Assembly: GCA_037951105.1 (NCBI GenBank) | Contig: JBAMJV010009042.1 | Span: forward strand, 1 to 64,000 | Reading direction: 5' to 3' | Length of the DNA: 64,000 nt | DNA from: Echinarachnius parma | Lineage: Eukaryota; Echinodermata; Echinoidea; Clypeasteroida; Echinarachniidae | In this document: piece after piece, positions 1,598 to 46,500 of the stretch | How the letters are laid out: each line of letters starts with the position of its first letter | Numbering within the stretch: position 1 is the first letter of the stretch | The notes under the pieces: generated by a model | What the model was told of the DNA's origin: nothing | What the model saw: only the letters and a program-made list of their open reading frames with translations | Database searches by the model: none | Translations under genes and position numbers: made by a program

Positions 1598-4500
1598 GTG
1601 AGACATGCAGAGAACATGTGGAAATTATTAAAGGTGAGACATGCAGAGGGAATGTGGAAATGTGTTTCACTGTAAAAATAAGTCATTAACATTAAAGATT
1701 AAAGTGTAACTGATTATTTAAAACTAAAGACAAGTAAAAGCCTCCACACAATTTGTCTTTGCAATTCGACAGGTCTTGGACTCGGGGATACAAAATAATG
1801 TTGTCATTAAAAAAAAAGAATTAGACTGGATATGTCCGTCAGTATGAAAATAATTTTGTTATTTAAAAAAATTACTTTGTTATGCCCCTTTCCTAACCAG
1901 GCGCTATGTGTCCCGAGCAACACCAATGGCAATGTTCATATTTATTTAGAGTTTCAGACCGATATATCTTGTTTTTGCAGGGCCAGGGCCTCTTTTATTT
2001 TTACATTTACTGCATGTTGTCTTATATTTTGCCGGCCCTTTCTAACGACAGATTCTTGGATTGACACATTTTGTGCGGGGCACTACCTACGTTAGATCGC
2101 AGACTTTTATCGCCAATCTACGCGGGTATTGCCCCGCACAAAATGTGAAGGGATTTATCGGTCTGATATTTAGTATGCACCTAGATTAGTTGATGTTCTT
2201 GTAGTGTCATACTAATTACTACAAGTATGTCAAAAACATGAAAATGGTAGATGAAAGAAATTATGAAAAAATGTTATGTCCAAAGGCAATGGTAAGCAAG
2301 AAGGTTCCCCCCAAAATGGGCTTAAAAATGAAAAACAATAACAATTGAAATCTGTCAAAGTTTGATATGTCATTTCCAGACAGGATCAATAAATGAATGA
2401 CGGTCTATTCATGACAATAACCATAACAATAAAAGGCTGCAACTTTGCAAACTAGCAATTTAGTTCTGAGTCGGAATGCAATATCGCATGTGAAGGAAAT
2501 GTACAAGTAAAAATGATCGATCTGATGACTCGTTGAATCAATCATTTTAGAACAAGGTATCAAGAATTGTGATTAACTATTTTATTATGAAAAGTAATCA
2601 TACATGTATGATGTAGAGTCAATCAAGGTAAATTTGAAATTTATCATAGGAATTGGGTCAGTTGTTTACCAGTTCATGTTCTAATGGAATTTGGAGTTGT
2701 AAATTGTGCATTGTAATGTTACATTTGATGGCATCTTGTACAATATAGTAGGATGCTGCTTGAAAAAGAACCAGGATTTTAGAAAAATGTAATACAAAAA
2801 TTGGGTTGCATGTCCCTCTAATCATGGAATTTGCCCTTTAGTTTGAATAATTATTTTCATCGTTCCTCAGGTCGCCTGTACTTTGCCACACTGAGAAGCA
2901 AACCAAGAAGCACAACAAACACGCACTACTTCTGTGTTGATGACGAGCTACAATATGAAAAGTAAGTACACTCTACTTCTAGCCTGTCTTAGTGGCCACC
3001 GGTCTATAGCATTAGCAGCAAACCTGCCTACTGTATAGCAGCCAAGCTGAAGGCCACACAAAGTGATCCCTGCAGAGAAAAACTGCATTTTCTACCAAAG
3101 CGTGCCCACGACTTGGCGGGCATGACTAAAAGAACTGATGCTCTATGCAATTTGTATGGAGCATCTGTAGTGAATGCCAGAAAAAATACTTAAATTGAAC
3201 CTTTCTTTATATGTCACCTGTCTACATTTGTAAGATCTCGAGGGGTAAGGTCAATTCGAGAAGTACTGTGAACTGCAAAGTAGGAACCTTTTTGCTTGAA
3301 TTTGAACATTGAACATTGATACCCACATGCACTTTCCCCTACATGTAGATAACACGGCTTAATGTTAGCCTAGCAAGTAGCAACTGAGGCAAGTCTCTTC
3401 ATTTTTACACAGTAACTCTGCGCAAAATGTGCACCCATAAATCATAATAAACATTTTTGCTAAATTCCGTGAGCTAATCATCTCTGATTCTCTAACTTTA
3501 CATACAATGTATTCTGAGTGAGAGCCACTAGATAGAGGGTGCATGCACAGTGCAGTGAGTGCACCTGTGCTACTTCATTATCCTAGAATTCTGCATGCAT
3601 TCTGTGCATGTTTGTAAACTTCTCCATGGCACATGTGTTATTATTTTGTTTTCAATTGGACAGGATGTTGCCAGTAGTTCTTCCTCTCCTGGGAGGGGAA
3701 GTCTCTCATTTCAGCTCACCTCTAGAGCTATCCAAGTGTGTGTTCCTCAACAATTACAATCTTGAAACAGTGTTTACATACACGTACATACATTGTAGGA
3801 ATGCTTTGTAAAGCGACTTTGCAATTCCACGATAACACCGGGACACTTCAGAACACATTTTCACTTTCCAAATGTAAATAACAAACTAAGTGTAAAGAAT
3901 GAGAACAATCTTTTATTGTATATCTTTGACTGTTATCACAAGCAACTTTGAAAAAAAAAATTAATACAAAATTTTCATTTATTAATGAGTTACGCATAAT
4001 TAATTACTACTGTAACACCGGGACGCTAAAAGGACATGCTTTTTTTAACACTTTACATACTGGCAAAACTCTGTGAAGTTAATGAACATTTTGAAACTTG
4101 GCTATATTTATTTGGTTTAGTAGAGACTCAATAATAATAATTAGGTGTTATTTGGAGAAAAAAATCTATCATGAAGATAATTATGAACTAGCATATAAAA
4201 AATTGTACCGTAACACCGTGACCGTAACACCGGGACCTCTGAAAGGGCATGTACAAAGTCTATGGAAAATTAGGTTGTCTTACTATACTGGCAAAACTCT
4301 GTGAAGTTAGTGAATATTCTGAAAAGTGGCTATATTGATTTGGTTTAGTAGAGACTAAATAATAATAATTGGGTGTTATTTGTAAAAAAAAACTATTATC
4401 AAGATAATTATGAACTAGAGTATACAAAATTATACCGTAACACCGGGACTGTAATGTACAAAGTCTATGGAAAATCAGGTTGTCTTACTTTACTGGCAAA

Positions 4501-7500
4501 ACTCTGTGAAGTTAGTGAACATTTTGAAAAGTGGCTATGTTGATTTGGTGTAGTAGAGACTCAATAATAATAATTGGGGGTTATTTGTAAAAAAAAACTA
4601 TTATCAAGATAATTATGAACTAGAGTATACAAAATTGCACTGTAACACCGGGACTGTAATGTACAAAGTCTATGGAAAATTGGGTTGTCTTAGTAAAAAC
4701 TCAAAACATTTTTACTTTAGGTAGTAGATCAAGCAACAATTTAGTATGTATACATCAAGCTACCACCCCAACATGACAGAAACTAGCTGGTCACTTTAGT
4801 ATGCAGTGATTCTCTATGCTCCCTGTACTATTGCAATGTAAGTCCCGGTGTTACAGTCCCGGTGTTACAGTAACCGTAACACCGGGACCACTATTCAACC
4901 ATTTTTAATTAATTAATGAAATGTCCAATCATCATTTTGATACTTGTTTATGGTAGATATGTGTGGTCAAGATTTGGGCAATTTAAGTTTTTTTGTTTGT
5001 GTTCGTAATTTTCTTACAATGCTAAAAATATCAGTTTTTACCGTAACACCGGGACAATATTCTTTATCATAAATGAATTGTTCATTGAAGCGTATCAAAA
5101 TGAAAAAAATGAACTTCAATGATTTTTTTTTATTACATTCAACCCTAAACCTCTGAGAAAATATAATAAGTTTTTACCTCCTGTCTTACTTGCTCTTGCT
5201 ACATTGATTTATTTTCAACACGTTTTCCAGACATTTGGATGAAAATTAATTATTCATATTTTATGCGCATATTTTAATATGTTCCTGATGTATATTTCTA
5301 TTTTAAAGGTCAGACTTTAAAAATTCAGTTCTTAAGCTTTATTTTGATACCAAAATTGAAACTATCTGACCATTTTGAAAATTTGGTGGTCATGTCCACT
5401 TTATCGTGGAATTGCATACCATCTATTAGGAAATGTGATTTTGGCCCTTGCTCATACATATTAAAAACACATCTTTTTCAGAGTTTCTTCTTCATGAGGG
5501 AGGGGAGGAAAGTCTCATTTCAGCTCACCTCTAGAGCTATCCAACTCCAAGGGTGTGTTTGTCAACCTCTGCAATGTAGAAACGATGTTTCCAAATAAAT
5601 GGGAATGCTTTGTAAAACGACTTTGCATTAACCACATTGTAGGAAACGTGATTCTGGCTCTCGTTCTTCTTTAATAAAATTAAAAACACATTTTTTTTAA
5701 GGGTTTATCCTTCCTCATATGGGAGATTCTCTCATTTCAGCTCACCTCTAGAGCTATCCAAGGGTGTGTTTGTCAACCTCTGCAATGTAGAAACGATGTT
5801 TCCAAATAAATGGGAATGCTTTGTAAAAACGACTTTGCAAACGTGGATTCCGGCTCTTGTTCTTTCATATTATAAAAATGCATCTTTTTCAGGGTTAATT
5901 CTTTCTCATACGCGAGGGGCAGTCTCTCATTTCAGCTCGCCCAGCTATCCAAGAGTGTCTTTGTCAAATAATGCAAATAAGGATTCATGCAAATAAAAAC
6001 GACTTTACATTAATGGTTTAACCATCTCTTAGGATATGTGATTCTGGCTTTTAATGTTCATCAATTCAATTTCAAAACAAACATTTTTCGGCGGTTAGCT
6101 TTGCATACCGTCTCTTAGGAAATCTGTACATTTCAAGCAGCTGCCCCTTTGTTCAGGGTTTCAAATCAAAACAGCAAGGCTAATCGAGTACATTTGTATG
6201 CATGCGTTTGTTCTAAAATGCAAAGATTAGCCGGAAATGCATTTGAAAAAATGCAGATTGTGGGCTTAAGTTAAATTTAAAAGGAGTTGATAAATGCACC
6301 CACGACTCAATTTTATTTTCCCCCTCCCTTCCTCTTTCTTTCCTTTTTAGTTTTTACCCACATCTTGGTTTAGTTTATTCCCCTGATCTACCTTTTAACT
6401 ACCTTTCTCACTTTTACTTTCGTGATTTCATCTTGCCATATTTGTATTCCCTCCACTCCTATTCAAGTTCAGATAAGTTATATTCAATGCAGGAATTAAT
6501 TTATAATTTTAGGGGGCTACTTTTTCAATCTAATGGATATCCAGATTTATTTCACATAATACTCTATGGTAATTTTAGGGGCTACCTACTGATTTTAGGG
6601 GGCAAAATCGCCCTCAGCCCCCTTATATTTCCTACCCTGGTTATATTGTATATTGTTTACAATCAATTATCATCATGCATGAGTGTGATTGATGTATGTA
6701 TTTTGTAGAACAAATAGTTTGGTTGATTTATGTTCAATCCAACGACAGCAACAGAATTGAATCATTGAACTTCAGTGCCCCTTTCATTGTCTGACACCCA
6801 AGGTGCACTGAGAAAGTGCTTTTCATAACAATGAACATCAAACTTGAATTAGAAAGTCCTGAGTAAAACATGTCTCTTCTTTTTTAAGGTATGCTCGATC
6901 TGCTTAGCAAATTTTGTGCTTGTGTCTAGAATCTGGTCTAGATGAGATTCACTAGTTGTAAGGAATTACATTTTTATGCCTCCGCCAACGAAGTGGCCGG
7001 AGGCATTATGTTTTCGGGTTGTCCGTCCGTACGTACGTCCGTCCGTCCGTCCGTACGTATGTCCCGTTTTCGTTCTCGCGATATCTCAAGAACCAGTTGA
7101 CGGATCAATTTCATATTTGGTATGAGTGTACATATTGGGGTGACAATGATCTTATTAGATTTTAGGGTTCATGAGGTTAAAGGTCAAGGTCACAGGACTC
7201 AATATGTACGCAAAAATGCCTCGTTCTCGCGATATCTCAAGAACTGGTTAACGGATCAAATTCAGACTTGGTATTAGTGTAGATAATGGGGTGGCAATGA
7301 TCTGATTAGATTTTGGGGTTCATGAGTTCAAAGGTCAAGGTCACAGGACTCAATGTATGTGCAAAAATGCCTCATTCTTGTGATATCTCAAGAACCGGTT
7401 GACGGATCAATTTCAAACATGGTATGAGTGTACATATCGGGGTGCCAATGATCTGATTAGATTTGGGGGGTCATGAGATCAAAGGTCAAGGTCACAGGAC

Positions 7501-10500
7501 TCGATGTATGTGCAAAAATGCCTCATTCTTGTGATATCTCAAGAACCGGTTGACGGATCAATTTCAAACATGGTATGAGTGTACATATCGGGGTGCCAAT
7601 GATCTGATTAGATGGGGGGGGGGGGGGGGGGGGCATGAGGTCAAAGGTCAAGGTTACAGGACTCAATATGTATGCGAATCATAAAGAGTTAACGTAGCCA
7701 TAAAATGTTGGGGTCATGAGGTTTCGGTCAAGGTCACGGGACTCATTATGCAAAAAAGCTTGTAATGCCAGAATCTCAAGAATTAAATGTCAGAGTTCAA
7801 TCAAACTTGGTACCTGAATGTTTTTTTAGGGAGCCATCAAAGATTGGGGTCATATGGCCAAGGTCACAGGAATCAAAATATATGAAATACATTTAAAAAA
7901 ATTAATTCAGTGCATGTTAATTTGGGCTTGATATTAAAAGCGCGTAATAGCGGAGGCATAATTTTCGATTGCGCGCAATCGAAGATCCATCTAGTTTCTC
8001 TCTGAGTTGAACAGAAATGTTAGTTGCCCAATCGGGCAACAAAACTCGACTATTTATTTATAAAGTTTTAATTGCCCCAAGCAATCGTGCAAGTGATAGT
8101 GTTGATTATGTAAGTCATGATGAGGTTTAGAATTTCAGTTATATGTTTTTCTTATTTGAAGGTTATATTTAATTTCCCCCAAAAATGTGTGATATTTGTT
8201 TGTCTCTTTGCTCTGTGTACTTTCTGAATTCATGGCACATACCAAGTGATATTATGTTGCTATTTATGAAGTTGTAGGTAATTTCATGAGTTGGTGTGTG
8301 AACTTGTTGTTGGCTTATTATATTTTAATAATTTCTTCTGTTTGCAGCAACTTTGTAATACAATAAAAAATAGTTCCGAGGCCATTTCTCTCTCCACTTT
8401 CACTTAAATATTAACATGAAATATTATTCTTGTTTAGGGTTGTTGACATTTTGCTTTGCTAGCTGTTTACTAGCAGTTAGTAGTCACTTACTTGTCAACA
8501 TGTTTGGCACATGTTATCATTTTGAACCATCATTTGATTTGTTTTAAATTTCTTGAGGCAACAGTGTAGTGTGTTTTGAGGACGCATTGTCAATTGATAT
8601 CTTGTCATGAGGCATGAGCATATTGACATGGGACATGTACATGCACAGCAACTTCTGCAAACATACATGTACAAGCATTTGGTCGGGTGAGAGTGAGAAG
8701 GGCGTTAAGTCAAATTTTGGGCTAAATGAGTTTTTCATACCATCTTTTAGGGATCGGCCTTTTATCCTATGTGATGCCAACTTTTTAGACAATAATTATT
8801 TATATTTGTGTACATTTATTGAAAATGATTGAAAACTTATTGAAAATGTAAGCAAGCTTCATTTGGTTAATCGTTATTATCTCAGAAGTATAAAAAATGA
8901 CTTTGCGCCCTTCTCTTTCTAAACGACGCTTCAGTTTCGCTTGATGAAATCTGATCGTCCGCTCCTGGCACTGTTTATCTGTGTGGGAGTGTTTGTTTGT
9001 CTCAAACACGGCAATAAAAATGGTAAATTTATGCTAGATAACAAACAAACTTCTGGGTATGAATGCTACCCTTTTCAATGCTAAAAAATTACCCTTTTTT
9101 TTGCCTTGTGGCCCAACTGGCAAGCAAAAGCAATATTTTCAATTTTCTAGTGGCCCGAAATATTAATCTTGTAGCCCCAAACAAGGAAAAACATTACAAA
9201 TTATGTTACATATGTATTTGTTTGCCCATTCGGGCCAGTGAAATATAGGATCAATGACATTTGGTGCCCTGATTGTGCCCGAAGCTAATTTTGAGTGGCC
9301 TCGGGGCCATGCCCCAGACTCAAGCGGACCTGTGATAATTTTAAGCTTTTGCTGTCATACCATCATATCTGGGCAATTCCATGAAAATGTCTACCAAAAC
9401 AAACAAAATTAAGTTTGCTGTTGAGTTTTTTTCTTATTATGGTTGATAATGCATGACTTGAACTTTCTAAAACCATATTTGCTTTTTTGATATTTTGCCA
9501 TTTTTGCCCAAAATCTGCATTTTTAGACTTATTAATTGGATTTAGACATATTTTTGAAAAATAAGGGTTATTTGAAATTGATTATATCTGTATTTATATC
9601 TAGATGCATATTCAAAAACTGAATGCAAATAATAGATACGGAGGGAAAATTCAAATAAATATAAAAAATTTTCGCCAAAACCTGTATTTCGTGCATTTAC
9701 TGGGGGTCAAAGTTCAACTCAATTTTTGTCCCGTCTGTCACGTTTTTTAACAATTAATTAATTCCTAGCAAATACCTGTGACTGGTTTTGGATCAAACTT
9801 TATATTTATTAACAAAGGCCTATTACCTTTACATTAACACTACATTTTTGTAAAAATATAAGTTATGAATATAAATATCAATGTTTTAATCTTGTCCCGT
9901 CTGTCACGTTTTGTCCCGTCTGTCACGTTTTTGTCCCGTCTGTCACGCTCCTTTTTACTACTAATTTGTTAATTCAACTAGGTTGTTGCTGTTTCATAAT
10001 GAGTTGGGCTAAATCTGTCACTTTAGAGGCTTATCACAATAGTTGGTGGAATTATCAACCTAAATAACCTGTAAAAACAACATTTTAGGTAATTGGTGGG
10101 GATTTTAAGGTTTTCTATTGTCCCATGCATTGGATATCGTGTTGTACTATGTAAAATTAGATTATTTCATAGCTTACCTACCTTAATCAATTTAAATTAA
10201 AAAAATAACACTGCTTTTATCGTTTATCAACTACTTTTTATCAATAAGGGTGTAATTTATTACAGAAAAACTCCTAAAAATGACTTAAATTGTATATTTT
10301 ACAGATTGTCCAATTCACCCATAGGAATTGTACATGTCCCGTCTGTCACGTTTTTCTTGTCCCGTCTGTCACGCTCATATTTTGGCTTTTTTCCTATTTA
10401 AGACAAACATGGGGGATTTCCCTATGTAGTGGCATACAACTGGCCTTAGGCAAGTAATAACCTACAGACATGAGCAGCCTTGTAAGATCATCCAGTTAGC

Positions 10501-13500
10501 AGGGATTTTAAATTAAGTGAGGTAGTGAAAAAAGCTTGGTAAAAGTGTGTCCCGTCTGTCACGCTGAGTTCAACGACCCACTGACATCTAGGTCAGAGGT
10601 CACACAAAATAAAACTCATATATTTTGAAAGTATGACTGCAATTTAATATCATAAGCATAAAAACTCCTGTTTAATGTTTAACCATTTGCCTACAAATCA
10701 ATCAAAACTGTGAAAAAGTCATGAGTGGATGTCCCGTCTGTCACACTGGAATTGCCCATCTGTGATGTTCTGTACTGTATTTCTACATTTGTTTAGATTT
10801 ATCATTGCCTTTTACAATATGTTTGTTTTTGGTCCTATGAATTGGCAAATCACGATTAGACTACACAAGTTGTTTTATGGTGTGGCTCTTTCAAACACTA
10901 ACCAATTATCCTAGTCCCTTGCAATCTTGACAGTACAATCAGTTAATTGGGAAGTGGGAAGTTCACAAACAAATATTTTGATTCTTTGTAGATGAGTGGC
11001 TCAAATTGCAAATAATCATAAAATCCAAATCTCTTGCAATCACCACAATGCTCTTTTTTTTTTTTAAACATACCAGCAGTAAAACAAATGGGAAGTTTAC
11101 CAGCATAAATATTTTGACTCTTGTTGGTAGATAAACGTATGCCAAATGACAGGAAGAAGAATTCTGTACTTTAAAGGAGACCGTGCAAAATGAATTTGCA
11201 TTAAAGGGTACCATCACCCCAAAATAATATTCTTATAAATGAAAGGTAACATCTTTAGTAGTCCATTCCATCAACAAGTTCACAAAAATATGTTTCCAGG
11301 AAGAAACAAAATATAATTGTAAAACGCATCAAAAAATGTTCATAATACACATAATTTTAATTTCCTAAATTGGATTCAATGACATTTAATGGTTTTCAAC
11401 TTGAGAATTCATTGATTTTCAAAATGGGTCATGTGAACAATAAGTTAACATTACTTTACAACTTGTGCATTTCACAAATTTGTATTCCTTTTTGTGTGTG
11501 TGTGTTTGTGTTCTAGATACTAGAGACGCTCGACCAAAGACATCAATATTCATTGACCCCCTTTTCCTTTTAAATGATGTACAATACGATTATCCTAGTT
11601 TTTGTTTTAAAGTACAAAAAGTAAAAAACAATGTACGCCAGTGATAAACAGGTCATGTACGTCAAATTATGCTAACTAGAGCTGTTCTTATGAAATATTG
11701 AATGTTCATCAAGCCTGTAAGGTAAGTTGCGAGTCGTGCGAGTCATGAATTCAACATTCTAAAACAACTTTTCCATTTCTCCTTCTTTTTGACTTCCTTT
11801 ATAGCTTCTACGCAGATTTCGGACCATTGAACTTGGCCCTGCTCTATCGTTACTGTTGTAAACTGAACAAGAAACTAAAGGTGAGAACTGAGAACTACAT
11901 GTAATTGAATCACATTTTTGTATCTCTTTTAAATTTTGTTGTTTGATATCATTTGACAATTTGTATATTTCATGCATACCACTTTGAATGGTAAATTCAT
12001 TTACAGTACTGATAAATTAAATTCTATTCCAATGAACTTAGGTTTCTGTGAAAGATTCTGACTAAAATGAGTTTCATAATATTAGTTCATATTGTGTAAA
12101 GCAAACTGGGGTGACTATGAGGCTTAGACACTGAGTGCGACTTTGGATGAATTATTTAGTTCATAATTGAAATAGTAGGTTTAAAATAGTCTTTGTATAC
12201 AAGTTGCCCCAAAATAACATAAAAAGGAAAAGTGAAAGAGCAGATATATATATTCAAAGTAATAAGCTGTTGTCCAAAGTTAACCCTGTTTACAGTATAA
12301 TAATTATACTACCATGTTATATATACCTAGTGATTTTTTAGTAGCCAAGGACATGCATACCTGAATATCTGATTTGTAATGAGCAATTCAACACATTTTT
12401 AGTGGGAGGTTTCAGGGCTATTTAAAAAAGGATTCGTTAAAAATGAAAGCTCAAATCCTGTTGTCCAAGTTGATTATGAACGTAATAACTTTCAAATTCA
12501 CACTTTGATGAACTCACCATTTTTTCCATAGGCTATTATTATAGGTGTTGAACATTTTCAGGCATACATAATACAGCACTGACTAGTTTGATTCTGTCTT
12601 TAGACACAAGAGTGCACATAGTGTTGCAACCCCAAAAATACCTTTTTTTCACGAGGGCGATTTTGAAAATTTTGAGGGAGGAAAACGCCCTCGTGAAATT
12701 ATTAACGAGGGCTATTTTGGGGCTCACAGAGGCTCTTTTTTTTTTTTTACATCGTTTACACTGCTCACGGGTCTAATAAATGATTATCAATATTCATCAT
12801 GTTGTGACCTATCCGATTATGCCATGTTTGGTAGGTTTCTGGCGCTTTCCGATCATGCAGAAAGATTTTTTTTTTTTTAATAATTTTTTCGCCCCCGTGC
12901 CGTGGCTCACGGGGGCGATTTCAAAGGTTTCGGGGGCGAATCGCCCATCGCCCCCGTGTATTTTTTTGCTTACAAAATGCTTGGTTACAACTTTTCTGTC
13001 CAGCAAATGACAGGAAGTGCGATGCATTGAATTTCTCATCTATTTTTCATTGTTGGCATTCTCCTATGTATTTATCCTATTGCCGATGTACATGTACAGT
13101 GGTGAAGTCGGGTTTGTGTGGGCATTTACTTTTATCTCCCAAAAGAGAAATATGGGTCACAAGCCAACAAAAATAGCCCTGATCAGAGTAAAAGTCAATG
13201 ATACATGTTACAAAATAAAAATAACAAAAAAAAGGAGATATGTATCTGCAGTTTGATGCAAATTTATGTATGAATTGAAAGAGCATACAGAGTGCTTGCA
13301 AGGGATGCCATTTATATGCGAGTATAGCACGGTTAAATTGCATTTTCATATTTGCAGATTGAGATTGATTGATTGCATGGCTTAGGAGAGCGATTATGAG
13401 GATCCATGCTTTGAACCTAAATAGATATTACATAGGGAAAAAAGTACAGCGTTTCAAACGTTCAGTCTATCAGCATGACAATTTTGCATTTTTGCTAGAA

Positions 13501-28500: not shown

Positions 28501-31500
28501 AATAGGAATAAATGTTAAAACGGCTTGCCATTGATTTGTACCAATTCGTACTGCATTCGTGGGTCTATTCGTGGGGATTCGTGTTCAGTGTGACCACTCC
28601 TTTAGCCTGCACTAGAGGGTGAAAAGAACTTTGCTTTAGATTAATAAATCTTAACCTTCTCCAAACCAAGTAGATACAAGTCCATTGATATCCTACGCTC
28701 GTAGTGAGCATACAGAATCAAGAGGAGCAATATGCGCTCCAGGCCATTTGAGTGGGGAACGTGTTGAGCCTGCGAACCCGTAACTTTTAGGCTGGAAATG
28801 AAAGGTGACCGGTCCGAGTGGAACTTAATTGAATTGACCATTAGAAGAATTTGCCCATTACATTTGCACCGTAGCAGCTTGTGTAAATTACTTACTTAAC
28901 CCGTTCAGGACGGACTGATTTTGCTACAACATGTATTCTCCGTAGACCAAAGGCCGAATATTTTCGGGACCAGTCCTGAACGGATTAATGTAAAGGTTAG
29001 TAAAGGATACTTAAGGTTATTAAATGACACTTGGGATTACTAAAGGTTCTTTAAGGTTACTAATATTCTTATTACTTGCTGAATAAAAATAAAGTGTGAC
29101 CAGGTCAATGGCAATTGAATTGACCCATAGAATGTGGTCATCATATCCGGTGTATATTATATTGACAACTTCTATATATAATTATTATAAAGTACATTAA
29201 ATTTGTACTCAAAGAGGATATCTTTTTACGTGGACATGAGATGGTATTTGACCTTTAAAATTACATTGATATGTCCAAGTCCAAGAACATAACAATTAAC
29301 AAATCCAGCCCACACTGAATGAAAATGGAAGCAAAGTTGTCAGTCCAAATAGCATTCAATTTAATTGGCCAGTAGAATGTAGCCCATCAGCATCTATATG
29401 AAGCTTTAGTCTGTAAATTTCTTTTCTTAAACGGGATGTTTCGTGGGATGTCGTGTTACACGTTACGTTAACAGTTGGCAGTAATTGACTCCTAGTTGCT
29501 AGATGACCTTTAGAAATGGTCAGCGGTAGGGGAAACTCACTAGTAGGAGCAGTCCTGATTGAGTGATAGAGTGATGACCAAGAGATTGACCAAGTCACAA
29601 ATACCCTTTTCACATACTATTACATGTAGCCCAGGGCTAGCCCGGGGCCAGTGAAATTGCACTTCGGGCCAGCAAAAATGTATAAAAGTCATATTTTGGG
29701 GGCCCGATCGGGCAAGCAGATTTTCAACTTGACCATTGACAAAATCAGAAAAAATATTGTTTTCCTTCCATGTCATGCTTCATCTATTCTCAAGGGTTTG
29801 ATCATGAAAGAGTGATATTTTGAAGAGTAAAAAGTGTACTCATGAAATCAAAATTTTGGGGCCAGTAAATTTTTCTTTCGGGCCACCAGAAAAGAGGGAG
29901 AGAATTATTTACTGGCCCGACCAGGTAGTCGTGTAGATTTTTTCTAGGACCTGGACAATGTTTTTTTATTGATTCGTATTCTAGAAGGGTTAAGAAACAA
30001 TTTCCAGCTTTGTTGCCACCTTGGCAACATTGGGCAACTTTTTTTATAAGCATTATAAAGTTAATTAAGCTAATTTGCATATTTGTGAAATAAGGTCAGG
30101 GTCATTTTCCTATCTCATTTTTACTTTCCCGGGTTCCCAATATACTGATTTGGGGGAATATGCAATTAGGTAAATACCTAATCTATGCAAATAATATGCA
30201 TTGCTATATGTTGCCATGATTACAACTAATCTTTGATATCTTGAATACATACTTAGAACATATCTGACAAATAATAATCGGGAATTATTGCTTATTAAGG
30301 GCTGTAGCCACTGAAAATCAATAATATTCATAAATATGCAAATTAGGGGCAGCCATCTTGAATTTCAGGGTGTTGCCCATATGGGCACTTACAAACGAGC
30401 ACTCAGAAATTGAAATCCTTGCCCCAAAATATGCTAGATACTTGTTTTTATCAATATTGCACTATTGCTAGATAGACAATGACCCCTGACCTTATTTTCA
30501 AAAAATATGCAAATTAGCTAATTAACGTTATAATGGTTATAAAAAAAAGTTGCCCAATGTTGCCAAGGTGGCAACAAAGCTGAAATTTTTTTCTTAACCC
30601 TTCTAGAATATGAATCAATAAAAAAAACGTTGCACTAAAGAACGTCTCCAGGTCTAATACACGAAGTATAGGACGTCTACCAGGACTAAGGCCACTAACA
30701 AAAATTTAAGTGTGGAGCCCTGCATGTAGCTCTTCTCTGTAATGTAGTCGGTCCTAATTGAGTGATGAGACAAAGAAATGTCCAAATCACAAATACCCTT
30801 TTCACTGCACATGTTAATTCTAATTTTGAATCGTTAGAAGTGATACATGATGTGGAAATTGTCTGATGCAAGCCTAAGTAGTTGCTAGGTGACCTTTACA
30901 AATGGACAGGGAAGGGGAACCTCGCCAGGAGCAGTCCTGATGAAGTGATGGAGTGATCAAAGAGATGACCAAGTCACAAATACCGTTTCCCTTTTCACAT
31001 ATTATCATTTTGTATGTATAGATCTAAATTTGAATCATTTCATTTTGTATGTATAGATCTAAATTTGAATCATTTCAGAAATGATGCATGATGCAAGCTT
31101 CTAGACGTTTACATCGCTTCAATCTTCATTATATTGTAAGGTCAAGATGAGCTATTTAACAGGCATTTTGCCTGTTTTAATTGTCATGGTGAATTGTCTG
31201 TAAGCAAACTCTACTGCTTTAAAGGGATCTAGTAACGTTGGCCGAATAATCAAAATGTGATTTGAATTCTAGTGGTTCCCTCATACCTCGTTGCATTTGT
31301 ATTAACAATAGAACCATGTGACTGACAGGTTTCGGTTTTTCGATTTCCCTTTTGTTAAAAAGATATTTACAATTGAAGTGCTCAGTTGATAAACTATCCA
31401 CTGGATAGTCGTAACCATGTATAAAGTCAGTGCAGAGCACCCATTTCAAAATGTTGATTCTAGTCTAAATATAGAGACATAAATGCACAGGTATAGGGAT

Positions 31501-37500: not shown

Positions 37501-40500
37501 CCCGATCGGGCAACTAAATAATTGTTCAGCTATGAGAGAATAATTTCATTTCTTACATCTAGAGTAAACCTTCAAAATATATTGATTTTACTTGCCAGGA
37601 AGGAGGGCCAGTAGAGAAAAAAGTTAGTGTGGAGGCTTGCCTATGGATTGCTGGAAGGGTGCTCTTACTCGGTGCTTGAAATTAGCATAGGCCCACTGGT
37701 CCGGGGCCACTAAAAAATTGGCTCTGGGCCACCAAATTTAATTAATCCTAAATTCTACTGGCCCGATCGGGCAAGCACATGTCACAGAATTTGTTATGTT
37801 TTTCTTTGTTTGGGGCCAACAGATATAGGTTTCGTTCGGGCCACTAGAAGTTGACAAATCTTGTTTTTACTTGCCCGACTGGGCCACAAGGCAAAAATGT
37901 TAATTTCTAGCATTGTGGAAGAGTTACTGACTGAGCTAGAAAGCTCCTGTGAAGTTTGTTGAACCCTTTTCAATGCCCATGAGGCGTGATGGTCATAAAC
38001 TATAATAAACCTGATAGTTAGGCGGCTAAGGCTAATAATTGTGCACTTTTTGAAGAAAGCATGAAAGTCCTACCATATAATCTCCAGGATATGAGAATTA
38101 TTTTCCCCCGTGGAAGTTCGCTGAATTTGACCTCAAGTGACCTTTAGAGGTCATGACCTTTTCCTTCCCTTTTTCGCCATTTTGGGGGTTATTTTACTTG
38201 CTTCTCCTATATTTTGTTCTGAATATAATTATAGCAAGTATACTCGGATCCGTAGGGAGACAGTGGTCTTGTTAGATGTCGGGGTCATGAAGTCAAAGGT
38301 CATATAGCACATTATTTACATTAGTCGTGTAAATGGTCCTATTAATAATAATAATAATAATAATGCATTTATATAGCGCATTTTCCATATAGAATGTTCA
38401 AATGCGCTTAAATAATTACTTAAATTATTATTACCCATGGTCATCGGGTACATATCAAACCTACACAATGATATTGCGTACTTTCTCAACTCCCCGGGGA
38501 GCATACTAGCCAAGCTGCCACTGATGATGGCATGTATCATGCCTGGAGACCTTTATTAGCCCAATTTATTTTGTTTATTCATGTACTAAATGGTTTCTAT
38601 AGAAAATTTAGCGAGATTGCCACATTGGCTTTTTTTATAACCATTATTAAGATAATTAGCTAATTTGCATAACTCCGAAATAAATTAAGAGGTCAGTATC
38701 TATCTAGGAATAATAACGCCAGTAATTAAAACAGCTATTTTAAGGTATTTTGGGACAGGCAATCCAGTTCCAATGCTCATTTGCATGTGATATATGGGCA
38801 ACACCCAGAAATCATAGATGTATGCCCCTAACTTGCATATTCATGAATATTATTGATTTTCAGTGGTTATCGCATGTAATGAGCAAACATTACAAGTAAT
38901 TATTTTTCAATCATATTCTAATTATGTATTAAAGGTATTTCAACTTGGTTGCCACATTGGCAACCTCTGACATCCCATATAATTAGCATAATTAAGTAAT
39001 TAACCTAATTTGCATATTCTTAGAAATGTATAGTATATTGGAAACCCGGAAAGTAAAAATGACAAGTAAAACCACTTTTCCAAGGTTTAGGGGGCAACAA
39101 ATCCATTTATAATACCTATTTCCTCATATCACCATGGCAACCTCATTAAATCCAAGATGGCTGCTCCCAAAATTACAAATGTTATGATACACAAGTTGGT
39201 TATTCTGGTTATGTTTCATCGAGATGATGACTTTTTGACTTTCAAATTATTGGAATTGGCAACTAGAATACTGGAGGCACAATTAAGTTCGTTTCTTACA
39301 TTGAAACAGGGTATAATGAAATAAATGTGTTAATATTGGTAAATATAATTTTTCCTTTAAAAAGCGAAAGGCGGGCATCTTGGATTTACATGGGTTGCCA
39401 TGGTGATACGCCGATTTGAATATATCATAAATGGATTTGTTGCCCCCCGTGGAAAAAGTGGTGTTACTCGTCATTTTTACCTTCTGAATTTGCAATATAT
39501 ATACACACATTTTCATGATTTAGTAGAATATGCAAATTAGATAAAAAGCCTAATTTTGCTCTTTATATCCATTTTTAGAGATTGCGAAGGTGGCAACCAA
39601 GCTGAAATATCTTTAATACACATTTATAATATGATTTCGTGTTATTTCTGCTGATTATAGGCTGTAGCTACTGAAATTCAATAATATTATTAAATATGCA
39701 AATTAGGGACAGCCATCTTTGATTTCAGGGTGTTACCCATATAGCACATGCAGATGAGCATCGGAAATGGATTCCTTACACCCTAATAGCCTGAAATTAG
39801 TGTTTTTTATTACTATAGTATTATACTATTCATACTGTAGATATAAACTGACCTCTGAAATTATTTCATAATTATGCAATTATCTAATTATTTTATAATG
39901 CTTATAGATAAAATGCCCGAAGTTGCGAAGGTGGCAACTTCACTGATTGTGTTAGTTTTTTTAAAGGTGCCAAAAGGCTTAATGGCACTTTGAGGGCCTG
40001 TATTTTTAAAAACATACTGAACTGAAAACTTATTTTTGTATTTTCTTATAGCATCCACCTAGATTGATCTCCCATACCTTAACGAAAATATTTGGACTTC
40101 CCTTTATATAGGTCAGATAACCCTAAAGGGCCAATTGTTAACGGAAATTTGTCAACCAAAAATGGGTTAAATTATGTTCAGGTATAAAAAAACACTAACA
40201 GATTTTTTTGTTTTTTTATTTGTTGATAATTATGAACGAGTGTGAGTTAAACTTTCAGAAAATTAACGGCGCTTAATATGTAAAGTAATATTTTGACAGT
40301 ACAATGCCATCAAAATTGGTGTTTCGGACGTTACATCCTCCGTTAACAATTTAACCCCTCATTACCCCTACCAGTATCATAATTTATTGAAATGATATCA
40401 GTATGAAAATTGAACTAACAGTTTCCTCATCATGTTGCCTAAAAGGGAAATGCCTGATTTCTTAAGCCAGCGATTAACAAAAAAAAAAACATGAAATGCA

Positions 40501-43500
40501 CACATGCTCTCATTTTCCGTTAACAATTTTGTAACGTCCGAAACAATATTTCTTTAGAAATAATTTTTAAAAGGGGGATAACACAAACAATTATTTATCT
40601 CAGTTTTGAAGAGACTTGATGTACCTTCCCATCACAGAAAAAAAAAATGCAATAAACTTATTGTATTATGATTATATCTTTAAAGTTAACTTTCCGTTAA
40701 CATTTGTAACGTCCGAAACAAATGTAACGTCCGAAACCAAAAATGTAACTTATAAGCTCATAAGTCACAGGAAAGGGCACATTATATGAATCAATCATCA
40801 TAATATAAAATAGTATTCATTTTGAAACAAATTTACACATGAATTGGGTAATTAATTGGCAAAACTAATGTTTGAGATCAACCAATGTAAACAAATGTGT
40901 TTCGGACGTTACATGGGGTAATTGTTAACACAAAATTGATATTTTAGTGCATTTATTTTCAAAATGATAATATATGGTTATTATTATTCATTTAGATCAT
41001 GTAAATGAAACATAATCATCAAAATACATGATGCTTTAATAACATTTAGATGCTTAGTCTGCCCCAAATCCATATTTTCACCAATTTTTCATCGATTTTT
41101 CTCAGCTAATTTGTAACCACTAAAGATTTACAAGACACTTGATATAGTGAATGATGTGACTAATCTACTTGGAACAATAACCTTTCTTTTGTGGAACTGA
41201 TACACTACCTGCTGCAACAACTCCTGTATTTTGTTTACCATTTACAGAATATTTTGTATGGTATTGTGAGCTTGTTTCGGACGTTACAAAATGGTGTTAA
41301 CGCACATTTTGATTGCACAAAAAATTCAATTTGGAACATTAAAAAAAGTACTATCTACATTTTTCATGATCTATATGCTTCCTGCTCCAAGCAAAAGTGT
41401 TTTGAAAAATAAATTATCAGTTATTTGTCTCTGGGAAGGAACTTTTATTTATAAAATGTGAGGAATTGCTATTTTTGCCCCATAATTGTTCATGTTGTAA
41501 AGTACACACAGAACTACATGTATACTGATTTTGTTTTTTTGTATCACATCAAATGCATTGTTAGGTTGATTGCCTTTATAATGTTCTATAAGAAACAAAT
41601 GTTAAGTCTCTGTTTCATTATTCATTTAGTGGAAATATAGACATTTTCATTAACAGAGCCTTTTAGTGGTATACAAAAGTACAGTATATCTATGCTAAAT
41701 TTACTCAAAGTTGCAAAACATATTTTTTTCATATACTTAAACTTGATAAGAAGAAAATAATCTGCATTGATCCACATGTTTTACTGACACTAATTAAAAT
41801 GTTAATCATTTGTATTAAAAAAATCCACATGTTAAAACAAGTTAGTTTTGAAATACTATATGGCATATATATGCCATGTAAACTATAGGTACAGTACATG
41901 TACACCAAGATAATTCCTTATCTTATTATTAAGGCAATTTCCAGAACATTACTGGTTTATGATCAATTACATTTTTGCGCAAGTCAGCTATGTTTGAAAA
42001 ATGTAACCATATCTGCTGGAACAAATATATTTTCTTGACCATGACCTTATGTGGTACATACAAGTGTACTGTACATGTGCCATTATAACTTGAATTTGAG
42101 GTTTTGCTAATATCATATTGATCAGTAATGCATTTATGACAGTTATTCTAATTTTCGATAATAGTTTGATAATAGTTTGATAAAATTAGTTTGAGCTTCA
42201 TGTTTTATCAAAATAAGAAAATGGAAAATTCAAATCATATACAATGTATGTCATTGTACAATTTACATATACAATGTACTTTTATCTTTTGTAAAATGAT
42301 GAAGGAAACTCTGGAAAGTCACAACGATCATCCTTTGACTGTATATTAATAACAGTTTCTAATTGCATGTAATATTTGTACAAAATCTTGGATTTTGTCT
42401 ATCAATATGGACTTCATTCACTATCCCTTTCGTTGGGAGTTCAATTAATGCACATATTTATGGGTTTTGCTTGCAAAATCGTGCAAACAAAGCGAGTTAA
42501 GATATGTTTTGAAGTGATGTTAACACCATGTAACGTCCGAAACAAAATCGGGTATGTCATAACATAATGCAACTTTACTACAATAAATTACAGATCACAA
42601 TTCTCAAATTGTAGTTATTCTAGTACTAGGTACACAGTACTTCATAATTTCACTAAAACCCTTAAAATTGTCTCTACTTTGGAGATCTGAACATATAATT
42701 ATATATAAATCAAGTTTACATGTACTGTACTGTACTATAATGTCTATGGTTGATTGAAGACCCCTTTCTGTGCTATGAAGTTAATTTGACCATTTCAAAG
42801 AAGAATTTGGATAGATTTACATCTAAACATATATTTTCTGTATTTAAATATTCCAAAATAGCAAAGATTTAAACCACAACTGGTCATAGAAGTGTAAAAA
42901 AGGGTAAATGTTAACAATGTGTAACGTCCGAAACACATACAAGAATCAAATTGGAATTTTGTTTGCTAGTGTCTTGCTCCAATTTTATATCATGTAAATA
43001 TGTCCTATCATGTATTGTTTCCATACAATAAGTTTGAACCAACAACAGTAAAAAAAATTTGCATTACAAAAACTTCAAATTGCAAAATTCAAATTTTAAG
43101 GCTATTTTTCACTTTAAAATGACCTAAAAACTAAAAATTTAAGAAACAGAAGCCCCGAAAATGACACACATGATGTCAGAAGCCCACTTTAATTATTTGT
43201 ATTATTTGTAATGCCATTTGGAATAGTAGGATTTTAGTATGGCAATGTGAACATATATCATTTTTTTTTTTTAAATATAGGAAATCCTAAATGTCCATAG
43301 ATATTTCGCAGAATTGGGGATAGATTAAGCCCAGATATTTATATTTCACGAAAATATAAGTTGTGTCAATGTTAAAAAAACATGTTTGAAGTTAGTTCAC
43401 TTAATTTCAATTTTGACCATGTTGGTTGACACATTTGGCATCTTTAAAAAAACCAGTGCCTTATAGAAACCATTTAGAACATGAATTACCAAAAAAATGG

Positions 43501-46500
43501 ACCATCGTCTCCAAGCCTAGTACATGAAATTATATGAGATCATCAACATGACAAAAATACAAAAATGAGCGCAACTAGTATAAATATGAGGATGGAGGGG
43601 GGGGGGGTATTCCCACTTTTCTCCACCACACCCTCCCCCTCCCCCTTCTACCTATGTCTGCCATGAAATGTACGCAGTCATCATACGCTAATCTATTAAA
43701 CACATGTTGTTTAATGAGTGCACTTTCAACATAGAGTTAGAAAATTGAGGGCTTGGGAGGGGGTGTCCTGGGCCCCTTTTCTCCATTCCACACCCCCCCC
43801 CCCCCCTTCCGTTTACTCAACCCTCCGATGAAGTATACATCATAGTTCACTTGTATATCAATAACATTATACTATGCAAATATAACATAAGTGAAACTTT
43901 CAACATAGGAGAAATGAGGGGTGGGGTCGCACTCCCCCCCACCACCCTCCCATTTCCCCATTTTCCCCCCTAAAATAATCATCTATTAATTATAGTGGAC
44001 ATTTTGAGTCTCACGCGTGACCTTTTCCCCATAAACGTGTAAAGAAACTGTTATGTACCCCATGAAATGTTGTACAAATTCACTTTGCACCCCCTTTTTT
44101 CAAAAACCCTCTCCCGCCCCTCAACGTCATAATTAGCAAACTTCCACGGGGAAAATTAAATGTTATGATGATAAGAATGAACTGTGAAAATTTCATGCTT
44201 TCTTCATTTTGTGCACAATTGTTATGATTTCAAGCCCTTAGCTGCCTAACTATGACACAAACCTGAATGATAAGAAATCAACTTTGGGAAAAAATAGAGC
44301 TTCCCCGGGATTTGAACCTGAGACCTCCGGATTGCTAGAATGGTGTTTTACTGACTGAGCTAGAAAGCTCCTGTGACGGTTTGTACTTCCTTGAAGTTGA
44401 AACCCTTTTTAATGCCCGTGATGGTCATAAACTTTATAATAAACCTGACACAAACCCAGGCCTGCACAAACCCGAATGATAAGAAATCAACTTAAATGGA
44501 TATGTGTGAGGGATTTTTGTATAAATTAAATTCAAAGATAGAGGAAACTAACCAGAAATATATAATATAAATGAAACAAAAAATAGCAAAGTTATTATTG
44601 TCAAATTGTTGCAGTCTAGTTTAAATACAAGATGGTAGTCCGTACAATGATAGGGGGAAAAAATCCATATTTATGGTATGACCTATTTAAAACTAATCTT
44701 TATAATGCATTATCTTTAGGCTTGAGCATAATTCAACAGAAACCTATTTTCATCTTCCTGGAGAAAATATGTCAAATTTATGGGCATCCAAATTGATACG
44801 TCCTTAACCTATGCAAAAGGGAAAATATGTACAGCGCTCTGAACATGCATGGAAGTTACACGTGTGTGTAATACTGCAGCATAAATTATGCAGGACAAAC
44901 ATTCCTTGCCGACCGCAATTTCGGCCGCAGATTGATTCGACTTGAGCAAAATTAATTTCCAATTTGCAGTGGAAAGCTTTCCTTGCTTTATTTTTCCTCC
45001 CAATTTCCGAAGCCCATATATAGTCCTCGTTTGATACACCATTTGAATGGGTAATGAATTGGGGAAGGGGGGGGGGGGGGGGGGGTAGGGGGATTTTCAG
45101 ATGAATGGATGTATTACTGTATTACGTGACCTCCCCAGTGGAATAGGTAGTATCTGGGACGTTATTAGGCAAACTCAGAACAAAATTTAAGCAGTGAACA
45201 AAATCATAACATGGGAGCTAAGGGCAATTTAGCCCCCAAAATGCTAACAAAAAGGCCCATGAAAATCATGAAAGAGCACCTGCTTTTTACCACAGAGTTG
45301 GTTGTAAAATATATCTTTGGGGAAAGTTTAATGTAAGCAAGCTTGGAAAATGCCTTCCAAAATAAAAATGTTATTTTGTTTCCGGGGGATGGGGGAGGAT
45401 CGTCCTGTAAATAAATTTATCATGTGACCTCGGTAGTGGAATTGGTAATTAATGTATGTGGGACGATATTAGGCAAGCTCGGAATAGAATTGGAGAACTG
45501 CGCACATTATCCCAATTCATTTCAGTTTGCAGTTTTGATCCGTCATTGACAACAGGGCAATTCCACGGTAACGGAAGGACATTCAGACGCAATTTTTGAA
45601 ATTAAATCAAATAATTCCAGAATCCTGCTTATGATTCATCATTGTAAATTACATTTCTGAGACTCTTGGTGGGACACCTTTGATTTCCTATTTTTAAATT
45701 ATTTTTTTTTACATTACGTTTATTAGATATGGACACTAATAAGGCCGGTAACGGAAGGACGGCAAAATGGACATGGATTTTCAAGTCCTTTAGTTATGAT
45801 TCAATCTCTGTGAAGTTAAGAGGACTATCATGTTATATTGGCTCATAGTCCATTCCCTAATGTTCTAAGAGTATAACAACACTTATTTGAAACAAATATG
45901 TCTATTGGTATATTAATTACAAAAAGTTAATTGCTTCACTGTTCGGTAACGGAAGGACAGTAACGGAAGGACAGAGTTTTTTATTCATTGAAAATATACT
46001 TTAGGGCTCTCAAAAGACTGAATTTTTAATCTGAACACATAATGTGATATTCAATCATCCAATTTGGTACCTTAAAACAGAAAAATACTAGAAAGGAATG
46101 CCAAAAATACAGAAAATCTAGAAATAGGCACTGTGTAGTCCCATGTGTATACTAGGTTCATGTATGGTGTCTGTTTCTCCTATCAGGAGACGCCCAATAT
46201 TTTTTTGAATCATGTAAACTGAAAGATATTGTTATGTGATCATGATTTATGAAAAAATAATCCAGAAAAAATATACAAGATTAGAAATAATCCTCATTGG
46301 ATTTTTCCACTTTTGGCTCATTTGGCGTGGAATTGCCCAACAACAGAGTTGGCGGTACTGAAGGGGAGAAGAAAATTGTAAATGAGGAGAAAAATAAAGA
46401 TTGAGATTTGTGTTTATAATAGAAATTCAGATGAAAAATTTCAGATTACAAATTCTGAATAGGATTAGAGTAATGTATAAACTGCCCTAATGCCCTAGCT

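Follow-up and report, generated by a model that had tools for sequence, protein, structure and literature searches.

Families of non-autonomous DNA transposons in Echinarachnius parma that share ends and motif addresses and differ in a private iterated motif

The 64-kb window (the whole 64,000-nucleotide stretch analysed) contains three non-autonomous DNA transposons, here called A, B and D, whose ends read (GG)GCAATTCCA. Together with about 2,500 similar ends in the genome they probably form one lineage, with ends GGGCAATTCCA and 4-bp target duplications, whose families place many copies of a short motif at the same addresses and write that motif in letters private to each family. As judged from sequence, the private motif is a predicted docking site for a family-specific, element-encoded protein, and its copies would have been re-tuned site by site. 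The rough probability given to this reading, taking lineage, plan and docking site together, is 0.7.

Elements A, B and D in the window

The coordinates of the elements and of their motif copies are collected in Table 1. The sequence GCAATTCCA occurs seven times in the window against 0.91 expected, and six of these pair up as the ends of A, B and D, which bears out the shared terminal core that an earlier note on this DNA had read there. The GGG found at the ends of B and D is absent from those of A. The 4-bp duplications claimed in that note for B (ATCT) and D (AACA) are present. Element A is flanked by TTTGCA and TGCATA; copies of a host repeat nearby, around 5617 and 6101, suggest TTTGCATACC as its empty site, with a possible but ambiguous TGCA duplication.

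Table 1. Elements, motif copies and arms in the window (a minus sign after a motif start marks the reverse orientation)
Feature	Coordinates	Strand	Details
Element A, non-autonomous	3819..5417	+	motif GTAACACCGGGAC; ends GCAATTCCA(CGATAA)
A motif copies, n=10	3832..5055	+	3832, 4012, 4210, 4224, 4437, 4642, 4842(-), 4856(-), 4876, 5043
205-bp tandem units in A, multiplying some motif copies	4249..4692	+	
A right arm, motif-free	5056..5417	+	362 bp
Element B	9371..10757	-	motif GTGACAGACGGGAC; ends GGGCAATTCCA; TSD ATCT; left (motif) end 10757
B motif copies, 8 exact	9728..10744	-	9728, 9894, 9913, 9933, 10336, 10359, 10549, 10731
B right arm, motif-free	9371..9727	-	357 bp
Element C	39955..43460	+	motif GTAACGTCCGAAAC; right end ..CTTTAAAAAAACCAGTGCC
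C motif copies, 8 exact	40321..42934	+	40321-, 40531, 40706, 40724, 40899-, 41274-, 42530, 42921
Element D, short form D1	45555..46338	+	motif GTAACGGAAGGAC; ends GGGCAATTCCACG; TSD AACA
D motif copies, 4 exact	45568..45972	+	45568, 45748, 45946, 45960
D right arm, motif-free	45973..46338	+	366 bp

A recount returned the motif numbers first given for A, B, C and D (10, 8, 8 and 4); the set in A consists of eight exact copies and two with one mismatch (3832 and 4210). Within the window each of the four motifs is confined to its own element, even at two mismatches, and in 40 dinucleotide shuffles no 13-mer ever occurred more than three times. Duplication of a longer tandem unit, which the earlier note had counted against its reading, explains part of the copies in A and B and only that part. 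Four copies in A (4012, 4224, 4437 and 4642) are spaced 205-213 bp apart within a tandem array, best preserved at 4249-4692, so that part of the count in A is ordinary duplication, and three copies in B form a 20-bp tandem. A tandem origin was rejected for the spacing of the first two intervals of A, B and D, since within each element these intervals are not homologous to each other.

Genome-wide ends and target duplications

The end followed by GTRAC has 2,491 matches in the 1.2-Gb genome, against four for the backwards control, and the sample described below comprises about 70 of the places listed among these matches. Ends of the type found in families E and K have 1,422 matches, against none in the control. 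An exact 4-bp target duplication flanks 27 of 29 copies that have both ends, a count made up of 21 of 23 in a first batch (L010 and L028 being the exceptions) plus B, D, L080, L081, L082 and L083, and leaving out A, which is ambiguous, and one L078 pair of two-mismatch ends. These duplications are AT-rich (A/T fraction 0.87, n=27), with AWWT in eight of the 27 and TTAA in two, and the shared terminal inverted repeat is 11-13 bp long. Terminal inverted repeats with a target duplication of fixed length place the elements among the class II DNA transposons; a DDE transposase supplied by an autonomous partner would mobilise them.

No transposase, binding protein or autonomous copy was recognised among the sampled elements. 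Four longer complete elements (L026, L035b, L034 and L020) have no open frame above 105 aa, and the longest in L083 is 115 aa. The 4,120-bp L026 and the 5,856-bp L083, considered as autonomous candidates, turned out to be 1.8-kb E elements of the usual kind, lengthened by inserts nested within them. In L021 an E left block is followed by no right end within 9.7 kb and by an E-type right end 15.4 kb off (contig C32); a second long pair of E/K-type ends, 5.5 kb, lies in C275. L077/L078 carries one motif at its H-type end and lacks a right end. On viral contigs the pattern has eight matches, fewer than chance alone would give by rough reckoning.

Private motifs on a common plan

Eleven motifs were found on elements with GGGCAATTCCA-kind ends, some from one copy only (families A, I, J and M have one copy each), and the motif of C is a twelfth, on elements with other ends. 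Within a family all copies use the same motif, decay aside; between families it differs at every site compared. The form GTRAC...RRAC, put forward for the four window motifs, fits those four; the full set of twelve calls for the looser GTNAC...RNNAC, whose two halves start 8-9 bp apart, and in motif G the halves GTAAC and GTTAC abut. Random mixing of motifs between families, which would have told against family-private sites, was not seen: a second family's motif occurs in none of 40 sampled left ends. Same-end copies without iterated motifs, likewise held to be adverse, do exist, since seven of the 40 left ends (L040, L042, L050, L059, L061, L064 and L071) have one motif or none, as does another same-end copy, L024. 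Some of these are clearly deleted (L040, which read on as L079 is a deleted E-type copy, and L064), and only some are so explained. The right ends carry no full private motif, and those of A, D, F, G and H share a GGACAT-type word there, so the terminal site is not symmetrical.

Counted from the left end, motif copies stand at about 13, 192, 390 and 404 bp, and counted from the right end at about 360, 525 and 545 bp; families share these addresses even where the DNA in between has diverged beyond alignment (family pairs align at z of 3 or more in two of 36 comparisons for the first interval and six of 36 for the second). In the sample the first copy starts 8-24 bp from the left tip, adjoining the terminal repeat. 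Across nine families 47 of 54 slots are filled; 5,000 null runs filled 5.2 on average and 15 at most. The slots for this test were picked after the data had been seen, and K, M and C were left out. Slots stand empty in J (L2-L4), I (R1) and F (R2 and R3). All eight B copies lie within 8 bp of A addresses (gap-shuffle P 0.00035; 0.028 at 3 bp tolerance and 0.00135 at 12 bp); the A-D and B-D tests (P 0.031-0.097 and 0.033-0.084) are weak because D has only five gaps. The step from L1 to L2 has a standard deviation of 3.6 bp and the next step 3.2 bp (10 families, J and C excluded). Single steps between clusters fall at 164-226 bp in 43 of 58 cases (mean 192 bp), and the periodicity in A-D is best at 202 bp, with none of 1,000 random placements as strong; by its length this spacing hints at a link with nucleosomes.

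The earlier note's proposal of one class of recognition site that diversified between families is thus well supported, by one dominant private motif in each family with GGGCAATTCCA-kind ends sampled genome-wide, by the common addresses, and by the pair of families described next.

A motif switch between close relatives

Families E and K apparently represent one motif switch caught between close relatives. Their left backgrounds are 93.6% identical, and at all six compared sites three bases are changed, two in the core and one just before the motif, while site-specific flanks persist at each. No conversion tract longer than the motif is visible, since the flanks are kept to within a base or two. 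Another ten E-type right ends were compared; nine of them have an R1 motif, and in all nine it matches the subfamily of the arm (eight K, one E). The right arms of E and K differ by about 15%, so the switch is not very recent there.

Element C and its family

The ends of C differ from those of A, B and D, as had been noted at the outset; C ends in GGCWCTGG. Its pair of sequences has 66 copies genome-wide, against none in the control. GTTAAC is present in each of the seven motif clusters, starting 10-25 nt from a motif start. A start for C at 40128 (GGGCCAATTGTTAACGG), which would make it a member of the GGGCAATTCCA group, was rejected on the left-edge positions in other copies: among the 40 of 253 candidates that were scored, 38 of the 39 others listed start exactly at 39955 (query base 6) and one at query base 5, at 100% identity, and in all eight other copies examined GGCTCTG or AGCTCTG precedes GTTTTTTTAAAGG. 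The window copy, whose left edge is at 39955, lacks this word. The C family is young, and C probably sits inserted in an element of another type that iterates an octamer.

Proposed mechanism and alternatives

A DNA-binding protein supplied by the autonomous partner of each family would bind the private motif; candidates are the DNA-binding domain of a transposase or an accessory protein such as TnpA of En/Spm. A domain in two parts may recognise the halves GTNAC and RNNAC. The copy at the tip would set the place of the cutting complex; those inside the element, spaced by roughly one nucleosome repeat, could load the protein on linkers or bring the ends together in a loop. After a shift in the specificity of the protein, every slot would be re-tuned by point mutation under selection, leaving families that are deaf to one another's protein yet have the same ends and geometry. 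A more specific form of this reading, in which rigid slots one nucleosome repeat apart are counted from both ends and the docking word is rewritten in each slot whenever the protein changes specificity, is offered tentatively, at somewhat less than an even chance.

The private motifs might instead dock an element protein that relieves host silencing, not a transposition complex, with motif density marking self and motifs co-evolving with the protein. Arabidopsis VANC proteins are described as binding short, dense motifs that are confined to single VANDAL families and co-evolve with the protein (PMC5735166, in the passages drawn on here). Internal copies extend far from the ends, and the CpGs of the motifs persist, whereas CpG observed/expected in the rest of A-D is 0.23-0.42 (0.57 for the window). 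A density signal, however, needs neither fixed addresses nor a copy near the tip, and here addresses are fixed from the ends and, in nine of nine families, a first copy begins within 12-24 bp of the left tip. Motif copies stand in both orientations in A, C, E and I, and the non-homology of the first two intervals in A, B and D also speaks against it. This alternative is judged unlikely.

A host transcription or chromatin factor could also read the sites, which the elements would keep for expression or nuclear positioning. The spacing near a nucleosome repeat would suit such a factor, and another element type in the window iterates the octamer ATGCAAAT, a known host-factor motif, at 166-177 bp steps. 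One factor would favour one motif, however, whereas there are twelve, eleven of them on similar ends and plan; this privacy of letters argues for an element-encoded protein. A host factor is an improbable reader of these sites, and its binding would presumably suffer from the change of three positions at each of six sites between E and K.

Even more doubtful is an array inherited without selection, its copies made uniform, as satellites are, by gene conversion or tandem duplication, and its motifs drifting in concert. The tandem units of A and B are of the kind that this predicts, and A/E, A/D, D/E and F/H align collinearly. In older D1 copies the motif has decayed almost as much as the rest, its mismatches (38 of 623) lying only slightly below background (366 of 4,398). 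Yet the consensus motifs of D1 and D2 are identical at 52 of 52 positions while the other columns agree at 291 of 360, a difference of 19%; interval standard deviations are 3-4 bp against 11-19 bp in a simple indel simulation with assumed rates; and the E/K sites keep their own flanks almost up to the motif. Chance with founder effects in a handful of elements, for which only the presence of four elements in the window speaks, is refuted by the control counts for the ends and the C pair and by shuffles that were never so repetitive.

If the tentative reading of rigid slots with a rewritten docking word is true, a single genome maintains a dozen families that have ends and geometry in common and yet are mutually orthogonal. 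It has long been asked how the specificity of a transposase or accessory protein can shift, given that all copies of its site have to shift with it, and here one genome holds eleven outcomes on a common scaffold, with E and K close enough for the steps to be counted. Such families would give aligned natural data on protein-site co-evolution, would make it possible to test whether transposon architecture incorporates nucleosome-scale spacing, and would supply candidate orthogonal transposon systems. No description of such a system was found among the matches listed from the open-access literature (Repbase and most subscription journals lying outside this scope), and no transposon paper was among the matches listed for the motif strings in open-access text.

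Comparison with known systems

Sola2 transposons end in 5'-GRG. The 12-13-bp terminal inverted repeats and AT-rich 4-bp duplications described for Sola2 (AWWT in Dictyostelium fasciculatum; PMC3627910) have close counterparts here; the passages of that paper drawn on say nothing of iterated private motifs. Kolobok/KolobokP, according to the part consulted of PMC9587614, resembles the present elements in its purine-purine 5' ends and in having a 4-bp duplication, but Kolobok duplicates TTAA and 25 of the 27 duplications here are other sequences, so this lineage does not belong to a TTAA-only group.

The VANDAL elements and their VANC proteins are closer in the motifs themselves. VANC21 and VANC6 have different motifs, and the private motifs of VANDAL families are short and dense in non-coding parts, as they are here (PMC5735166, same passages); co-evolution with the protein is a feature of VANC. 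A MULE transposase and a VANC protein also mark VANDAL elements, and among the sampled elements here no coding copy was recognised. As described there, the VANDAL motifs spread by tandem repeats in one orientation, whereas those studied here are fixed from the ends, with the first copy adjoining the terminal repeat and, in A, B and D, intervals that are not homologous to each other.

The CACTA elements (En/Spm, Tam1 and soybean Tgm) share conserved termini and iterated, family-specific subterminal motifs with the present families. According to the sections used of PMC2613891, these motifs, 12 bp in En-1 and 17-20 bp in Tgm1, are bound by TNPA/TNP1 and vary by family even within soybean (Tgm1 against Tgmt*); binding by an element protein is a CACTA feature that is predicted here. 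CACTA/EnSpm elements have CACTA/CACTG termini and a 3-bp duplication, in contrast to the GGGCAATTCCA ends and 4-bp duplications of the A, B, D type, and those compared here come from plants. The motifs of Tgmt* crowd into the outermost 159 and 732 bp (same source), whereas here they follow one another at conserved addresses in steps of about 190 bp, and this animal genome presents eleven motifs on one plan, with one close pair of families that differs en bloc.

Family-private motifs on shared ends

An earlier note had proposed that elements A, B and D, non-autonomous DNA transposons in the window, share their termini and are each filled with a private iterated motif. This description is borne out, with GCAATTCCA ends, and the motif counts also agree: ten copies in A (eight exact and two with one mismatch), eight in B, eight in C (an element with other ends) and four in D. 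All four motifs are confined to their own element, with no outside copy in the 64 kb at two mismatches allowed, and in 40 dinucleotide shuffles of the window the multiplicity of any 13-mer was at most three. The 4-bp duplications flanking B (ATCT) and D (AACA) are present. The shared terminal core is found in A, which lacks the GGG. Based on neighbouring host-repeat copies, the empty site of A is possibly, though uncertainly, TTTGCATACC, with a duplication of TGCA. The sequence flanking A is a degenerate tandem array, and A is inserted in one of its units.

Features in the window and elsewhere, and the private motif of each family
Feature	Position	Motif or repeat	Remark
A	3819..5417	GTAACACCGGGAC	one copy of element
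B	9371..10757, - strand	GTGACAGACGGGAC	
C	39955..43460	terminal repeat GGCWCTGGTTTTTTTAAAGRTGCC	
D	45555..46338	GTAACGGAAGGAC	short form, D1
E		GTAACAGCGTGAC	
F		GTAACTCGCGTTAC	
G		GTTAGTAACGTTAC	halves GTAAC and GTTAC abut
H		GTAACTGACGTTAC	
I		GTTACGTATGGGAC	one copy of element
J		GTTACGGGTGTTAC	one copy of element
K		GTAACGCCGTGAC	
M		GTCACGGACATTAC	one copy of element
Array flanking A	about 3700-6100	CAGCTCACCTCTAGAGCTATCCAA...	~200-bp units
Repeat	6976-7990	GGTCAAGGTCAC / AAAGGTCA	~150-bp units
Tandem array	28323-28501	TTTCTTGATATCAAGAA	period about 21 bp
Octamer element	30005-30572; 38566-39938, resuming about 43462-43497 after C; 60272-61723	CTAATTTGCATA (octamer ATGCAAAT on other strand)	steps 166-177 bp
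Tandem array	locus L080, about 3971-5358, reversed orientation		period about 196 bp, at least 8 units

A search of the genome (1.2 Gb, 14,790 contigs) for the end followed by GTRAC within 6 bp gave 1,232 + 1,259 matches, against 3 + 1 for a backwards-pattern control. Sampling from the 100 places listed among these matches gave 28 stretches (L009-L036; 20 at 10 kb, 8 at 3 kb) and, at 0.65 kb each, 40 left ends. Later reads added a single 5.9-kb stretch and six of 6-7 kb, five of which extend left ends already sampled and the sixth of which is new, together with ten 0.42-kb right ends and eight 40-bp edges of C. Exact 4-bp duplications flank 21 of the 23 first-batch elements with both ends in view (the exceptions being L010 and L028) and 27 of 29 overall, when B, D, L080, L081, L082 and L083 are added and A is left out; they are 87% A/T and follow no fixed word. 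No coding copy was recognised among the sampled stretches and longer elements read.

Elements with this kind of end carry eleven motifs (see table), and the terminal letters are slightly different in families I, J and M. The proposed form GTRAC...RRAC fits the four motifs of the window; across all twelve, the common form is the wider GTNAC...RNNAC, its half starts 8-9 bp apart. The first motif copy adjoins the left terminal repeat; at the right ends of A, D, F, G and H, a common GGACAT-type word stands in place of the motif. Random mixing of motifs between families had been named as evidence against the proposal, and a second family's motif was found in none of the 40 left ends (0/40). Same-ended copies that do not iterate a motif had been named as well, and here the outcome is divided: in 30 of the 40 left ends a single family's motif is present three or more times within 630 bp, in keeping with the proposal, but eight have one or two copies and two have none (overlapping reverse G hits left out). 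The sole cross-match among 26 tabulated elements is one A copy that lies one mismatch from both the A and E motifs.

Conserved motif addresses

A and D both place the starts of their motif copies at 13, 193, 391 and 405 from the left end, and B at 13, 195, 385 and 408; the motif-free stretch after the last copy is 362 bp in A, 357 in B and 366 in D. When A and B are matched from both ends, each of the 8 B copies lies no more than 8 bp from an A address, a match equalled in 0.035% of 20,000 trials in which the order of B gaps was shuffled (2.8% at a tolerance of 3 bp, 0.135% at 12 bp). The same test is weak for A-D (3-10%) and B-D (3-8%), D having just five gaps to shuffle.

No alignment is seen among A, B and D for the interval separating the first two copies (z 0.6, -0.6, -0.3), or for the right arms, where z never exceeds 1.8. 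The second interval can be aligned between elements (A-D z 5.2; A-B and B-D z 2.2). Within A, B or D the first and second intervals have no homology to each other, and so the spacing reflects no recognisable tandem repeat. Tandem duplication of a longer unit, the remaining explanation that the earlier note had set against its own, thus fails for the first two intervals of all three elements; it does apply to the 205-bp units of A, which are a later exception.

Seven slots, L1-L4 and R1-R3 counted from the left and right ends, were defined after the data had been seen; leaving L1 aside, 47 of the 54 slots available in nine families are filled (random placement: mean 5.2, maximum 15 in 5,000 trials). 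Slots L2-L4 are empty in J, R1 in I, and R2 and R3 in F; the R3 copy of D, which carries two mismatches, is left out of the count. D, F and G have short forms (710-797 bp) whose middle cluster doubles as left address and, roughly, as R1. In ten families, leaving out J and C, L1 and L2 lie on average 177.6 bp apart, with an sd of 3.6, and the step after L2 measures 202.1 bp (sd 3.2); simulated indels at the A/E divergence, with assumed rates, give an sd of 11-13 bp. Collinear alignment is seen for A/E, A/D, D/E and F/H, the remaining pairs giving short pieces or none, and z 3 is reached by the first interval in two and the second in six of 36 family pairs.

Pooled across the twelve motifs, single steps of 164-226 bp make up 43 of the 58 inter-cluster steps (mean 191.7, sd 15.5). 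For A-D together, phase analysis has its maximum at 202 bp, a strength reached by 0/1,000 random sets; B and C alone give 201 bp (2/1,000) and C alone 184 bp (39/1,000). This step length is close to the nucleosome repeat length, and, judging solely by spacing, the motif step is perhaps linked to nucleosomes. The tandem array at L080 lies beside an M-family element.

Motifs constant within families and switched between them

The consensus sequences of two D subfamilies, D1 and D2, are identical at 52/52 positions of their four shared motif copies and at 291/360 in the remainder (32 copies compared; L049 was placed in neither). In D2, a young subfamily, mismatches number 2 among 988 motif positions and 75 among the 7,084 outside the motif. 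D1 shows a weak contrast, with differences at 38/623 motif and 366/4,398 remaining positions.

A and E are homologous, with background identity of 65.6% on the left and 61.5% on the right. Their motifs differ at seven aligned sites, with 77/91 motif columns identical, and of the two positions that differ, the A copy at 4210 matches E at one. Between E and K, 376 background columns on the left show 93.6% identity, and at six sites, four paired by alignment and two (1256/1468, 1276/1488) by flanks, they differ in the preceding base and in two core bases (AG to GC). The preceding base is a purine in 7/7 E copies and a pyrimidine in 6/6 K copies. The core change is also present at the shortened first site of K, and one K copy has an additional change. 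Because the flanks at each K site are those of its E counterpart, the change did not spread by conversion over a tract exceeding the motif in length. Among ten further E-type right ends, picked for absence of an E left end nearby, eight have the K motif (right arm 97-99% like K, 84-85% like E), one has the E motif (arm 96% like E) and one has none.

Several interiors contain other repeats. The repeat with ~150-bp units also occurs in the interiors of L018, L029 and L082 and at L079, and the E and K interiors (about 708-1144) contain similar GGTCAAAGGTCA or GACCTTTGACC copies, as if captured. L077 and L078 each open with an H-type end, made up of the terminal repeat and a single H motif; the next ~1.5 kb is common to both loci (81-97% identity in longer pieces), and neither a further motif nor a right end was found.

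Element C and the octamer element

C, correctly described as having different ends but an iterated motif, forms a young family of its own. A genome search for its motif pair gave 66 matches (control 0). Of 253 candidates 40 were scored, and the other 39 places listed all match the leftmost 173 bp of C at 100% identity. Left edges from eight copies, combined with the right edge in the window, give the terminal repeat; at its left end the window copy is missing the first 7 bp. Each of the 7 motif clusters contains GTTAAC, starting 10-25 nt from a motif start, and clusters are ~190 bp or double that apart, except for one gap of 1,256 bp. Since the C motif is of the same class and the ends are different, the motif class crosses different ends.

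C appears to be inserted in an octamer-bearing element of inverted-repeat type. The steps of this octamer element are nucleosome-scale as well and its motif is host-factor-like; the copy at 60272-61723 has mirror-image order in both halves.

Possible mechanism and relation to known systems

We infer from sequence that a component shared by every family would read the ends, and a family-private component the motif at its terminal and internal slots. Such constancy of spacing suggests a single complex that brings several bound sites together, perhaps on nucleosome-covered DNA. By analogy, the putative motif-binding protein might act in accessory binding of the En/Spm type or in anti-silencing of the VANC type. 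Of these two working models we favour the first, on account of the motif copy at the terminus and the constancy of the addresses.

Conserved addresses, a nucleosome-scale step, this number of families on one scaffold and an en-bloc switch were not found described in the open-access literature searched (Repbase and most subscription journals lie outside it). The idea of a family-private motif is already known from two systems. Soybean CACTA elements have conserved ends and subterminal motifs that differ between subfamilies, differences thought to track the binding protein (PMC2613891); VANDAL elements have dense private motifs co-evolving with VANC (PMC5735166). As a class for the A/B/D-type elements, Kolobok and CACTA both fail on the tested features. 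The best provisional fit, by duplication and repeat length, is Sola2 (PMC3627910).
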